From the IMG/VR virus record IMGVR_UViG_3300030233_000267, positions 1 through 41,128 of that record: DNA of 41,128 bases; one strand, written 5' to 3'. The notes beneath the pieces were generated by a model. That model was given only the letters and a program-made list of their open reading frames with translations. It had not been told where the DNA came from and ran no database searches. The translations under genes were made by a program, and so were the position numbers. This DNA is from a virus. Below, piece by piece: positions 9,909 through 40,889 of the stretch; the first letter of the stretch is position 1; each line of letters starts with the position of its first letter.

Positions 9909-10586
9909 GTGGACGCCCCCATGCCGGAACTCCTGTCCAAAGGCGACTTCGCGAAACTGATCAACGTCTCCGCGGGCCGGGTTTCGCAATACATCAGTGA
10001 AGGCAAGCTCTCGGGCGATGCGCTGGACGGCGAGGGGCGCCGGGCAAAGATCCGCGTTGTCCCGGCATTGGCACAGCTTCGCATGAAGCTCGATGTCAGC
10101 CAGATGATGGGGAACGGGCTCGACACGCGCCTTTCGACTCCGCCGACGATGCCGGCGCATCCTGCGGGTAGCGAGTTGCCGTTGCAGCCAAGTCCGTCGC
10201 CTGCGCGCACGTTGCCTTCGCCGGACAACTCAGAGCCGACGATCGAGGACAGGCTCAAGCAAGAGAAGCTTTTCCAGGCACGGATCAACAGCCGCAAGGC
10301 GGCGGAAGATGAAGAGGCCAGAAAAGGGCGTTTCATCGAAACCGTCGCCGTCAAGGCGGAGATGGTCCAGCTGGCGGCGAAGCTTCTGGACACGTTTGAA
10401 GGCGCCTTGCCGGATTTCGCAAATGCGATTGCCGGCAAGTTCGAGGTGCCTGCGCGAGATGTCCTGCACCTGTTGCGCGCCGAATTCCGTGACGTGCGCA
10501 CAAGAGCCGCGAAAAACGCACGCAGGGACGCCGAGGAAGAACCGGAAACGACCGAAACCGAGATTGAGACCAGCGACGACGGATGA
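9909..10586 (+). CDS. Terminase small subunit
   Basis: 225 aa. The N-terminal 30 residues are a winged-helix/HTH of the Nu1 type (LLSKGDFAKLINVSAGRVSQ), which would bind the packaging site. A Pro/Ser-rich linker follows (about 75-115), then a charged helical C-terminal half that would contact the large subunit. It ends in an acidic tail. GTG 9909 follows GAGGAG by about 10 nt; an ATG at 9921 is a possible alternative. The stop overlaps the large terminase start by 4 nt, as expected for a coupled terminase pair. Confidence 0.72.
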   Translation: MDAPMPELLSKGDFAKLINVSAGRVSQYISEGKLSGDALDGEGRRAKIRVVPALAQLRMKLDVSQMMGNGLDTRLSTPPTMPAHPAGSELPLQPSPSPARTLPSPDNSEPTIEDRLKQEKLFQARINSRKAAEDEEARKGRFIETVAVKAEMVQLAAKLLDTFEGALPDFANAIAGKFEVPARDVLHLLRAEFRDVRTRAAKNARRDAEEEPETTETEIETSDDG

Positions 10587-12544
10587 CCTGTCTTACAGTT
10601 GACACGGCAAACCCTCGACGCCTGTCTTTGGAATCGCTTGCCGAGGTCCTCGATCCTCCGCCGCCCGTGGACTATCTCGACTACGCCGAGAACAAAGTCA
10701 GCTTTTCGGAGCGGGAAAGTCCGTTCAAGGGGGACTACAACCGGAACCTTTTCGGTTACTTCGACGAGGTCCTCCGGGCTCTGTCTCCGGACGATCCCTG
10801 CCGGATCGTGACGCTTGCCAAGAGCGCACAGCTCGGCGGCACCGTGCTCGCCAACATCTTTACCTGCGGTTCCATCGAGATGGACCCGGTCGATTTCCTC
10901 TATGTCCACCCGACAGAAGGAAACGCCAAGCGCTGGTCGAAGATGAAGCTCGCACCGATGCTGAAGAACTCGGCATCGCTGAAAGCCCTGTTTCCGCAGT
11001 CATCGCGGGATGGCAGCGACTCGGTTCTCTACAAGGAGCGTGTCGACGGCCGTGGCGCGATCCAGATTTCCGGCGCGAACTCGCCGGCGTCACTCAGCCA
11101 GGTGACCATGAAACGCCAGGTGCAGGATGACCTGGCAAAATGGGAAACCAACACAGCAGGCGATCCGGAAGCGCAGGCTGACAGCCGCAGTCAGGCGCAT
11201 GAGTTCGCCAAGATCTTCAAGATCTCGACTCCATTGGTGATGCCGGGTTGCCGGATCACTCGGAACTTCGAGGATGGCAGTCAGGAACTTCCCTACGTCC
11301 CTTGCCCGCATTGCGGTCATATGCAGGTTCTCCGGTGGGAGAACATGCTGGCAAATCTGGACGAAGAGCATCCGGAGAAGGCCAGCTTCTATTGCGAAGC
11401 TCCCGATTGTGGCGCCGCGATTGAGGAGCATCACCGTTCCGAGATCAGCAAGCGCCTCGAATGGAGGCCGCAAAACCCGAAGGCCAAGCGTCAGCACCGG
11501 TCTTTCTGGATCTGGTCGGCTTATTCGGTCCTCCAGACGTTCGAACGGATTGCACGGGCGTGGTTGAAGGCCAAGGGTGATCCGGCCAGCGAACAGACGT
11601 TCATGAACGACGTCGTTGGTCTCGCGTTTCAAACGCAAGGCGAAGCGCCGCCCTGGGAAACCTTGCGGGACCGGGGCGCGGCTTCGGAATACGTTCGTGG
11701 GAAAATCCCGGCCGGCGCGCTGATCCTCACGATCGGCGTCGACTGTCAGGACGATCGCGTCGAATGGCAGGTGGTCGGTTGGGGGCGGAACAAGAACCGC
11801 TTCGTGATCCAGTACGGTGTGTTTCCGGGACACATCTCGGATGAAGGCTGCCAGGCGAAACTGAATGCGCTGGTCAAGCAGACATGGACCAACAGTTACG
11901 GCCGAAAGATTTCAGCTGACCGCATCGGTATCGACGGCAACGCGTATACCGAGGATGTCTGGGATTGGGTGAAGAAGCATCCGGCGAGCCTCGTCATGAT
12001 GGTTCGCGGAAACAATTCCGACAGCGCGCCCCTGCTGCTGCCAGTGAAAAAGGAACGGCACAAGAAGACCGGCAAGCTGCTGAAGTGGTCCAAACGGTTC
12101 TATTCGTTCAATGCGTCCGTCATGAAAATGGCGCTTTACCGGAATTGCCGGAAGGAAGATCCGCTCGCGCCGGGATATGTCGCGTTCCCCGCGGGGCTTG
12201 AGGATGAATATTACCGTCAAGTGACTTCGGAACGGCGCGTTGCGAAGAAGAACAAGGACGGCTTCGACGTCTACAAGTGGGAAAAAGATCCAACTCAGGC
12301 GAACGAAGCCCTCGACACAATGAACCAGGCAGAAGCCGCGGCCATCCGCTTCGGTGTCCGCGACATGCTGGAACAGCTCTGGGATAAGTATGAAGCCGAA
12401 CGGGAAAGCTACCCGGAAGAGGCGCAAGGCGATCTTGAGGATCTCCTAAGTCTGCCCGGACAGGGTGAGACGGAAACCGAACCCGACCAAAAACCGAAAT
12501 CGCAAGAAGGTAAGCGCAGCAAATGGGCGAGACGAAGGGGCTGA
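10583..12544 (+). CDS. Terminase large subunit, GpA family
   Basis: 653 aa, the usual GpA size. The N-terminal ATPase has an atypical P-loop region LAKSAQLGGTVLANI (about 78-92), as in lambda gpA relatives, and a VQDDLAKW acidic motif. Cys pairs CPHCGHM (about 240) and CEAPDCG (about 271) form a zinc ribbon. The C-terminal nuclease begins with GVDCQDDRVEWQVVGWG (about 385) and contains DRIGIDGNAYTEDVWDW, supplying metal-binding Asp residues. It pumps DNA into the prohead and cuts concatemers. It overlaps the portal gene by 22 nt. Confidence 0.93.
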   Translation: MTCLTVDTANPRRLSLESLAEVLDPPPPVDYLDYAENKVSFSERESPFKGDYNRNLFGYFDEVLRALSPDDPCRIVTLAKSAQLGGTVLANIFTCGSIEMDPVDFLYVHPTEGNAKRWSKMKLAPMLKNSASLKALFPQSSRDGSDSVLYKERVDGRGAIQISGANSPASLSQVTMKRQVQDDLAKWETNTAGDPEAQADSRSQAHEFAKIFKISTPLVMPGCRITRNFEDGSQELPYVPCPHCGHMQVLRWENMLANLDEEHPEKASFYCEAPDCGAAIEEHHRSEISKRLEWRPQNPKAKRQHRSFWIWSAYSVLQTFERIARAWLKAKGDPASEQTFMNDVVGLAFQTQGEAPPWETLRDRGAASEYVRGKIPAGALILTIGVDCQDDRVEWQVVGWGRNKNRFVIQYGVFPGHISDEGCQAKLNALVKQTWTNSYGRKISADRIGIDGNAYTEDVWDWVKKHPASLVMMVRGNNSDSAPLLLPVKKERHKKTGKLLKWSKRFYSFNASVMKMALYRNCRKEDPLAPGYVAFPAGLEDEYYRQVTSERRVAKKNKDGFDVYKWEKDPTQANEALDTMNQAEAAAIRFGVRDMLEQLWDKYEAERESYPEEAQGDLEDLLSLPGQGETETEPDQKPKSQEGKRSKWARRRG

Positions 12545-38563: not shown

Positions 38564-38681
38564 TTCCAAATCTCTCCGATCTTGACGCGGGAGATCCAGA
38601 GCGTTGGAGCGCTCCGAATACCGGCAGTCCGCCAAGACTATACGCCGGCCGATGTCTGTCTAGCATTCCATCGCCCCCGCG

Positions 38682-38701
38682 ATCAGGCCCGAAGGCCTGA
38701 T
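38682..38701. repeat. Stable 8-bp hairpin before methyltransferase
   Basis: ATCAGGCC (38682-38689) and GGCCTGAT (38694-38701) form a perfect stem; on the minus strand the loop is TTCG, an exceptionally stable tetraloop. It stands in the 207-bp divergent gap between the minus-strand membrane protein gene and the plus-strand methyltransferase. No T-run follows, so it may be an operator or RNA structure, not a terminator. Confidence 0.4.
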
Positions 38702-38770
38702 TCTGCACTGCCGCAGAAGAGGGCGTTATCGGAGTGCTTCAACCTGGAGTCAAATTTTGTCTGTGAGGCG

Positions 38771-39565
38771 GTGCCTCGCAAACTCCGCATCCTGGATCTC
38801 TTTTCCGGGATCGGAGGGTTTTCGCTTGGCCTGGAGCGCACGGGCGGTTTCGAGACGGTCGCCTTTTGCGAGATCGAGCCCTGGCCGCAACGGGTCCTCA
38901 GGAAACACTGGCCCGACATTCCCCTTTATGAAGACGTGCGCGAGGTGACCCTTGACCGACTTTCTGCCGATGGAATTACCGGAATTGACGTCCTCACGGG
39001 CGGGTTCCCGTGTCAGGATCTCTCGGCCGCGGGTCGCAGAGCAGGAATTGGCGGCGAGCGTTCAGGGTTATGGAGTGAAGTGCACCGCCTTATTGGCGAG
39101 CTTGGACCCCTATACGCAGTTATGGAAAACGTCTGGAACCTCCTTGCTGGCCCCAACGACCAACCAGGCGGATGGTTCGGACGTGTTCTCGCGGACCTGG
39201 CCGAGGTCGGGTATGATGCGGAATGGCACTGCATTCCAGCTGCGGCGGTTGGTGCCGACCACCACCGGGAAAGAGTCTGGATTATTGCCTACCCCGCTGA
39301 AGACCGATGGTTTCGCGATCGGTCAATTTTCACTGGAAACACAGTTGCGCGCCGAGTCGAACGGTTACCAGAGGCGGTTCTACGCCCCCTTGATTATTCA
39401 GGGATACTCGGTCGGGGAAATCTGCCTGACGTGCGAAAAGATGCTCGGCTATCCGGAGCGGTGGACCGAATTGGAGCCGTAGGCAACACGGTCCAGGTGC
39501 AGATCCCGCAGCTGATCGGCGAGGCGATCCTGAGGACGGAGCGAAAAAAGCGGTTAATTGATTGA
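38771..39565 (+). CDS. DNA cytosine-5 methyltransferase
   Basis: 264 aa from GTG 38771. C5-methyltransferase motifs appear in order: I DLFSGIGGFSLGLE (residues 9-22), IV GFPCQDLSAAG with catalytic C81, VI MENV with E119, VIII HHRERVWIIAYP, and X GNTVQVQIPQLIGEAI (about 238). The segment between VIII and X is only about 60 residues, so the target-recognition domain is very short for the family (most phage forms exceed 300 aa). The start is uncertain: the frame is open upstream to 38582 and GTG 38771 has a poor ribosome site. It probably methylates phage DNA against host restriction; no partner nuclease is visible. A second frame overlaps it from 38952 to 39482. Confidence 0.82.
   Translation: MPRKLRILDLFSGIGGFSLGLERTGGFETVAFCEIEPWPQRVLRKHWPDIPLYEDVREVTLDRLSADGITGIDVLTGGFPCQDLSAAGRRAGIGGERSGLWSEVHRLIGELGPLYAVMENVWNLLAGPNDQPGGWFGRVLADLAEVGYDAEWHCIPAAAVGADHHRERVWIIAYPAEDRWFRDRSIFTGNTVARRVERLPEAVLRPLDYSGILGRGNLPDVRKDARLSGAVDRIGAVGNTVQVQIPQLIGEAILRTERKKRLID
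38952..39482 (+). CDS. Overlapping +1-frame protein within methyltransferase gene
   Basis: 176 aa in the +1 frame relative to the methyltransferase, wholly inside it. TTG 38952 follows GAGGTG with 4 nt spacing; ATG 38970 is an alternative. The sequence carries features I associate with a phage protein group often annotated near C5 methyltransferases: LLASLDPYTQLWKTSG, FSRTWPRSGMMRNGTAFQL, then ESGLLPTPLKTDG and a C-terminal MLGYPERWTELEP. WKTS lies opposite the ENV motif and WPRSGMMRNG opposite the VGYDAEW segment, so the group may have arisen by overprinting. A methyltransferase 'shadow' with no product of its own is the competing reading. Confidence 0.4.
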   Translation: MTDFLPMELPELTSSRAGSRVRISRPRVAEQELAASVQGYGVKCTALLASLDPYTQLWKTSGTSLLAPTTNQADGSDVFSRTWPRSGMMRNGTAFQLRRLVPTTTGKESGLLPTPLKTDGFAIGQFSLETQLRAESNGYQRRFYAPLIIQGYSVGEICLTCEKMLGYPERWTELEP

Positions 39566-39947: not shown

Positions 39948-40889
39948 TCAAAGTCGCTCAATCACCACCAACGCCGTTGAAACACCGGTTCCACTGCCCT
40001 TGAAACTGCCCTCGGGCAGATCCTCGAACCAGCCATCATGTGCCGCCACGATGTTGCGGAACATGGCCGCTCGTTTGGTCTGACGCGTCGGCGTGGCGCC
40101 GGACAGCACCGACACCAGCTTGCCGCCTTCCTTCAGCCAGCGCAGCGCCTGGAGCACGTGGATAATGTCCTGTTCGCGTTCGAACGGCGGGTTCATCACC
40201 ACGAAGTCGTAGACCGGCCGCGGCTCGGGTGCGAGGAAGTCGCGGCCCTCCAGCTCATAGCCCTTCAGCTCAAGGATCTCGCGCAAGGCGGGCGCGATCT
40301 CGAAGGCGGAGAGCTGTGCGCGTGGGTGGTGATCGGCGATGTAATCCAGAATGGCACCGCTGCCGGCGCCGGGCTCCAGCAGTTTGAACGGCGTGTCCGG
40401 CAAACCGATTGCCGCGACCATGCGCTCGATCATCGGAACCGGTGTGGAGAAGAAGCCCGGTATCTTCTTGAACCGGACATCCTCCAGCTTGCGGCGCAGG
40501 TCTTCAGCGGCCTTGCGCTCGCCAGCGTCGTTGTCCTGGATGAGATCCCAGAGGAGACGGGCCTCCAGCGTTTCGCTTGCCGGTCTGCCGGTCTCGATCG
40601 GTGCCGTGTAATACCCGCCATCATGTTTCATTTCGGCCCGTGTCAGTTTGTGCACGGCCGTTTTCGTGGTGATCCGCGCAAGGATCTCCGGAACGGTCCC
40701 GCTTGAATGCAAATCGGCCAGCTTCCGGAGGGCGCGTTGCGTTCGCTCCAGGTGGAGCCCGTCGAGGCGGGCGCTGGCAGCCTCACGGGCGCGTTTCGGC
40801 GTGTTGGCGAGGCGATCTGCAAACTTGTGGTCAATCTGCGGCTGCAGCTTGTCTGCCATCGTGTTCAGTCGAATTGCGAGCTTGCTCAT
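39948..40889 (-). CDS. SAM-dependent methyltransferase, NPPF type
   Basis: 313 aa. A helical N-terminal domain (about 1-135; LAIRLNTMADKLQPQIDHKF, KTAVHKLTRAEMKHDGGYYT) precedes a class I methyltransferase fold. FKLLEPGAGSGAILDYIADH (motif I, about 168-187) binds SAM, and YDFVVMNPPFEREQDIIHV (motif IV, NPPF) matches amino-methyltransferases acting on adenine (N6) or glutamine. STPVPMIERMVAAIGL just before motif I is typical of DNA adenine methylases in mobile elements. GGAAAG lies 5 nt before ATG 40889. It may modify phage DNA; the target site is unknown. A strong terminator ends the gene. Confidence 0.8.
   Translation of the reverse strand: MSKLAIRLNTMADKLQPQIDHKFADRLANTPKRAREAASARLDGLHLERTQRALRKLADLHSSGTVPEILARITTKTAVHKLTRAEMKHDGGYYTAPIETGRPASETLEARLLWDLIQDNDAGERKAAEDLRRKLEDVRFKKIPGFFSTPVPMIERMVAAIGLPDTPFKLLEPGAGSGAILDYIADHHPRAQLSAFEIAPALREILELKGYELEGRDFLAPEPRPVYDFVVMNPPFEREQDIIHVLQALRWLKEGGKLVSVLSGATPTRQTKRAAMFRNIVAAHDGWFEDLPEGSFKGSGTGVSTALVVIERL

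Follow-up and report, generated by a model that had tools for sequence, protein, structure and literature searches.

The viral DNA analyzed here (IMG/VR record IMGVR_UViG_3300030233_000267, positions 1 to 41,128; the whole stretch of 41,128 nucleotides is hereafter the window) very probably carries a two-subunit C5 cytosine methyltransferase of the M.EcoHK31I kind, with a single gene, read in two overlapping frames, encoding both subunits. We refer to the frame 0 protein as alpha and to the +1 frame protein as beta. An earlier sequence-only reading had pointed to a +1 open reading frame with its own GAGGTG inside the methyltransferase gene, and this is what we found: the methyltransferase open reading frame extends from stop to stop over 38582-39565 and encloses the +1 frame at 38952-39482, with GAGGTG at 38942-38947. 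The features of alpha are as follows.

38771-39565, plus strand: alpha, predicted catalytic subunit of a C5 cytosine methyltransferase, 264 aa, likely GTG start at 38771 (start uncertain).
38792-38818, plus strand: alpha motif I, LDLFSGIGG (AdoMet binding), from the sequence and conserved in alignment A7.
38999-39016, plus strand: alpha motif IV, GGFPCQ (catalytic Cys), from the sequence and near-invariant in A7; PCQ at 39008-39016.
39125-39133, plus strand: alpha motif VI, ENV, from the sequence; E and N invariant in A7.
39260-39274, plus strand: alpha motif VIII, HHRER, from the sequence; both R invariant in A7; RER at 39266-39274.
39305-39454, plus strand: alpha 'recognition' segment, residues 179-228, predicted disordered (AF2 pLDDT about 40) and loosely constrained (family omega about 0.81).
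39482-39493, plus strand: alpha motif X, GNTV, from the sequence; N invariant in A7.

PCQ, ENV, RER and GNTV thus lie in alpha as the sequence-only reading had placed them, motif X starting at the last base of the range that it had given. Alpha matched PHROG family phrog_363 (E 6e-67) and Pfam family PF00145 (E 1e-40), the latter over model positions 2-167 of 324 only. It carries motifs I, IV, VI, VIII and X on one chain, as do the C5 methyltransferases of PF00145; by sequence and motif census, motifs I-VIII and X are present and motif IX is absent. In canonical C5 methyltransferases, the recognition domain and motif IX lie in frame between motifs VIII and X, and neither a folded recognition domain nor motif IX was found on the alpha chain. 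In the AF2 model of alpha (pLDDT 82; the modelling alignments held viral-contig loci only), the large domain and motif X are confident and residues 179-228 are disordered (about 40). The best PDB match of this model is M.HhaI, over 173-209 columns of the large domain. Elsewhere in the window, the minus strand encodes at 39948-40889 another protein resembling DNA methyltransferases, which has an NPPF motif (phrog_15406, E 3e-51; Pfam MTS), and the plus strand at 10583-12544 a terminase large subunit of the gpA type (PF05876, PF20454), which fits a tailed phage.

The +1 frame has its own series of features, listed below.

38942-38947, plus strand: GAGGTG, probable ribosome-binding site of beta, with 6 bases between GAGG and TTG.
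38952-39482, plus strand: beta, +1 frame protein of 176 aa with a TTG start, wholly inside alpha; matches phrog_1008 (E 6e-12).
39123-39227, plus strand: beta N-terminal block, WKTS ... WPRSGMMRNG (alignment A6), overprinting alpha motifs VI-VIII.
39285-39434, plus strand: beta recognition segment, LPTPLKTDG ..., variable among relatives; the family constraint sits in the beta frame.
39435-39473, plus strand: beta motif IX, EKMLGYPERWTE, from a PDB profile alignment (weak E) and the +1 frame motif census.

WKTS (39123-39134) stands opposite ENV (39125-39133), as had been noted from the letters; WPRSGMMRNG lies at 39198-39227, LPTP at 39285-39296 and MLGYPERWT at 39441-39467, and the stop codon of beta (39480-39482) is reached where GNTV of alpha begins. 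The motif series had been associated with a separate family of phage proteins, an association borne out by the profile search of the +1 frame: in addition to the window beta, 110/110 relatives matched PHROG 1008 at E <= 0.001. Beta had no match in Pfam or NCBIfam. Modelled alone with AF2, it reached a pLDDT of 63, only the C-terminal 35 residues being near 85, and a fold search with this model, the confidence of which is too low, returned nothing meaningful.

An open frame within a conserved gene could be spurious, with its apparent conservation coming from that of the methyltransferase only. The amino acid sequence of alpha does force part of the beta motif, since synonymous shuffles of the methyltransferase still scored about 50 bits in the +1 frame. 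When a profile built from 54 +1 proteins was used to score 59 other loci against 60 synonymous shuffles each, however, the real +1 frames beat every shuffle in 58/59 loci (median z 8.1, or 6.8 when the dinucleotides at codon junctions were kept). For the window, an HMM that left out the closest relative gave 152 bits to the real frame and 52.6 +/- 12 bits to 1000 shuffles (maximum 91; z 8.3), that is, about 100 bits above them. The open length of 157 codons was attained in 16/1000 shuffles, the median of which was 28. By region, the excess over shuffles amounted to 0.3 bits in the non-overlapping N-terminus, 56.5 over motifs IV-VIII and 62.3 in the recognition part. The +2 frame, which is full of stops, also showed some excess inside the overlap, as is expected because two other frames are constrained there. 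Furthermore, the rate of synonymous changes creating a +1 stop dropped from about 0.2 in the N-terminus to about 0.02 over motifs IV-VIII. A spurious frame is, in view of these results, hardly credible. The shuffle tests rule out an origin of the +1 frame by chance or as a by-product.

Substitution patterns show which frame is constrained where. Among 24 independent pairs of relatives chosen by methyltransferase identity, changes at alpha codon positions 1/2/3 numbered 151/100/522 in the N-terminus, 341/166/561 over motifs IV-VIII and 574/360/428 in the recognition segment. Since position 1 of alpha is position 3 of beta, the +1 frame is the one kept in the recognition segment. There, omega was 0.35 [0.29-0.39] for beta and 0.81 [0.69-0.94] for alpha, and the beta frame was more alike than the alpha frame in 27 pairs and equally alike in one, in 28 alignable pairs chosen by recognition-segment identity, a choice that could favour the +1 frame. 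Pairs chosen by the nucleotide identity of the catalytic half gave 80/20/33 (8 alignable pairs), the same shift, and those chosen by methyltransferase identity shifted to beta-frame constraint likewise. Across the family, therefore, beta and not alpha is the constrained frame in the recognition segment. Between the window and locus L011, third positions had changed in 34/54 codons outside the overlap, and in 23/93 (p 8e-6) and 19/65 (p 4e-4) inside it. In the recognition segment of this pair both frames change (18/14/19), positions 1 and 3 about equally, so that the dominance of one frame there is drawn from the relatives.

Taken together, these tests show that both frames of the overlap are under selection, that is, dual coding. 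The synonymous-shuffle and substitution tests, with the non-overlapping part of the gene as internal control, bear out the true dual coding that the sequence-only reading had considered, and the per-frame dN/dS and synonymous-constraint analysis that it had proposed found the +1 frame independently constrained. Its suggestion that the second family overprints the first held for the N-terminal half of beta, over motifs IV-VIII, and failed over the recognition segment, where beta is constrained and alpha is loose and predicted disordered.

Recognition segments vary even between close relatives: in pairs with catalytic halves 70-97% identical, the recognition segments were less than 70% identical in 39/47, as expected if specificity is exchanged there. 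In L104/L108, L015/L019 and L025/L036, the catalytic halves are 92-97% identical and the recognition segments only about 45-53%; judging from these sequences, the doubly coded segment looks to have been swapped as a block.

The overlap is widespread. A tblastn search of phages with the +1 protein matched 63 records; in all nine of the matched phage records examined, the match fell within a methyltransferase gene, in its +1 frame, and a single frame was annotated in each, the methyltransferase in seven and the other frame in two. In the GenBank phage records of L003 and L005, the beta frame alone is annotated, as 'hypothetical protein', and the overlying methyltransferase was missed. We further sampled viral contigs, collecting 80 loci by methyltransferase motifs alone and 80 by beta motifs alone. 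Among the 75 unique loci of the former set with a recognised motif IV, 67 had a +1 frame without stops along 80% or more of what remained of the gene (median 181 codons; GC 0.40-0.70), and none had such a +2 frame (0/75; median 15 codons). In every one of the 80 beta-motif loci, a methyltransferase overlaps beta in the -1 frame, and likewise in 14/14 loci from bacterial genomes; beta apart from a methyltransferase was thus found in 0/94 loci. The N-terminal part of the methyltransferase of L169 is broken by a frameshift, either real or a sequencing error. Alpha went unrecognised in 31 of the bacterial-genome loci (L191-L239) put through the frame census, partly because of the motif pattern, and only alpha-positive loci were used. 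PHROG 1008 matches occurred in 24/398 sampled genomes of one phylum and in 25/297 of one class. Eight distant beta proteins, aligned early on, had diverged too far to serve for scanning, and literature searches turned up nothing of relevance on phage methyltransferases with overlapping or alternative frames.

The bacterial genomes also led to a second, distant subfamily of C5 methyltransferases with the same overlap (YYNEFDxYAAQW start, SCPCQPFS motif IV; L194, L198, L204 and L240-L319). In this subfamily the +1 frame was open in 76/76 viral loci (median 254 codons), its motif IX, LNPAHSRWLMGLPPEW, lay in the +1 frame in 74/76 and in frame 0 in none, and third-position changes were again fewer inside the overlap.

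The motif missing from alpha is found on beta. The C-terminus of beta resembles motif IX of C5 methyltransferases (MLGYPERWT in the window, LNPxWVEWLMGFPxGWT in the family). Searched against all PDB sequences, a profile of 110 beta proteins gave three hits at E <= 10, all of them C5 methyltransferases and all weak (E 1.5-2), with the alignment falling at motif IX, including that of DNMT3C and DRM. Among 163 loci, a pattern match placed motif IX in the +1 frame only in 141, in frame 0 at a single locus (L088) and in both frames in 0; the remaining 21 had no match. In some relatives the beta segment lies in the methyltransferase frame: PHROG 1008 matched inside the methyltransferase chain of Mycobacterium phage Philonius (E 4e-71) and of a Nocardioides genome (E 3e-43), and its motif IX part matched within the methyltransferase frame of L088 and L180, the PF00145 match of L088 extending to position 322. 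The sequence-only reading had also raised a split enzyme and recognition by the partner protein. The location of motif IX, these relatives and the frame-specific constraint speak for both, and dual coding, split enzyme and partner recognition are compatible readings, supported all three together.

Some relatives have moved or broken frames. In actinobacterial phage and genome loci (L009, which is phage Philonius, L181, L222, L225-L227, L230, L231, L233 and L235), the methyltransferase frame carries motif IX, and in L009, L181 and L235 a WPRSG-type piece of beta remains in the +1 frame; as read from their sequences, the split point has apparently moved in these loci. Stops in the +1 frame beside an intact methyltransferase, which the sequence-only reading had named as counting against the second protein, occur in five relatives. 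Four of them keep the downstream beta in the +1 frame: L016 has one stop within beta (real or a sequencing error), and stops lie ahead of or close to WKTS in L081, L085 and L090. The fifth, L088, with several stops in beta, is the one whose motif IX is in frame 0. In L093, beta continues into the C-terminus of the methyltransferase, this too being either real or a sequencing error.

Beta might be a real overlapping protein with another role, for instance in regulation or counter-defence, and not a subunit of the enzyme. The N-terminal block (WKTS, WPRSGMMRNG), foreign to canonical methyltransferases and with no known match in Pfam, would fit such a role, as would the beta piece that stays in the +1 frame in relatives with motif IX in the methyltransferase frame. 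We nevertheless consider it unlikely, given that beta always accompanies a methyltransferase (94/94 loci), has the motif IX that alpha lacks and, in some relatives, has its segment encoded in frame with the methyltransferase.

Beta also shows signs of a start of its own. An ATG in the beta frame 10-34 codons upstream of PCQ was present in 117/129 non-redundant loci, where shuffles predict 41.5, and the ribosome-binding sites before the beta starts of relatives surpassed those of synonymous shuffles (-4.26 vs -2.68 kcal/mol, p 8e-8). A typical site in relatives is GGAGGTGCC, followed by ATG about five bases on. In the window, the family-typical ATG (38928) meets a TGA at 38946 and the frame restarts at the TTG at 38952, at the position of which the closest relative, L091, has an ATG. 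A mini-ORF of six codons plus stop, from ATG to TGA, thus occupies 38928-38948 at the usual beta start of the family, and L091 likewise shows an ATG...TGA with an ATG after it. Reinitiation at the TTG after the mini-ORF is possible, L091 having a like arrangement.

These starts bear as well on the idea of a single long chain, in which ribosomal +1 frameshifting near motif VIII would join the catalytic half of alpha to the recognition half of beta. The +1 frame could then supply motif IX too, and relatives with a single chain do exist. Nonetheless, (i) the beta frame is constrained far upstream of such a site, (ii) the ATG and ribosome-binding site that beta has in most relatives would be superfluous, and (iii) the chain would be without motif X, yet the alpha frame is open up to it. 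Frameshifting is, in our judgement, very unlikely.

We therefore favour the two-subunit enzyme encoded in overlapping frames. Alpha would contribute the large domain for catalysis, comprising motifs I-VIII and X, and would be floppy where a recognition domain is expected. Beta would be translated within the alpha gene from a ribosome-binding site of its own (GAGG at 38942, TTG at 38952), would supply the target-recognition segment and motif IX, and would act as the reader of the DNA sequence. The two proteins would associate into the active enzyme, which would methylate the phage DNA, probably against host restriction. As to its origin, two compensating frame changes flanking the recognition and motif IX segment may have moved it into the +1 frame, as would follow from its canonical place between motifs VIII and X; alpha would then read through in the new frame, and beta would have extended upstream over motifs IV-VIII. 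Beyond the window, we lean towards the view that two-subunit C5 methyltransferases coded by overlap are the default in at least two large phage subfamilies, with recognition on the hidden frame and the alpha segment a mere shadow of beta coding, the recognition and motif IX segment having been moved between frames by frameshifts and the doubly coded segment swapped by recombination.

With about 530 bases shared on the same strand and both frames under selection, in phages that differ widely in base composition, this overlap offers a natural test of the origin and persistence of double coding. The arrangement is found again at well over 100 other loci of phages, the records of which usually annotate one protein of the two. 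Many phage C5 methyltransferases are thus predicted to be annotated as one gene, and to be inactive or unspecific if only a recoded (codon-optimised) alpha is cloned or expressed, because recoding destroys beta. The frame that usually goes unannotated is where we suggest seeking target specificity.

Among known systems, the single-chain C5 methyltransferases (PF00145, M.HhaI) share with alpha the large domain and motifs I, IV, VI, VIII and X, whereas alpha is without motif IX and a folded recognition domain. PHROG 1008, a phage 'DNA methyltransferase' family of 329 positions, is matched by beta and all 110 aligned relatives; it is treated there as a separate protein, whereas the examined loci encode it in the +1 frame of a methyltransferase gene belonging to the PHROG 363 type. 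The alpha/beta C5 methyltransferase M.AquI (CYCGRG) likewise has its catalytic motifs and its recognition and motif IX region on separate polypeptides. Its small subunit also bears motif X (PMC3404938). In contrast to that arrangement of motifs IX and X together on the small subunit, here motif X is on alpha, and beta, with motif IX, lies wholly inside alpha. The small polypeptide of M.EcoHK31I (YGGCCR) is reportedly encoded in another frame within the gene of the large one, just as beta lies within the alpha gene in the +1 frame, under selection. In M.EcoHK31I, a two-polypeptide C5 methyltransferase, the large polypeptide bears motifs I-VIII and X without IX, and motif IX alone is on the small one (PMC3404938); the likeness to the present enzyme is one of motif layout. 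The present enzyme differs in being apparently an orphan phage enzyme, with no restriction gene recognised adjoining it. It differs also in that the recognition domain of M.EcoHK31I is predicted on the large subunit (PMC3404938), whereas in the present case it is the beta frame that holds the recognition segment under constraint.
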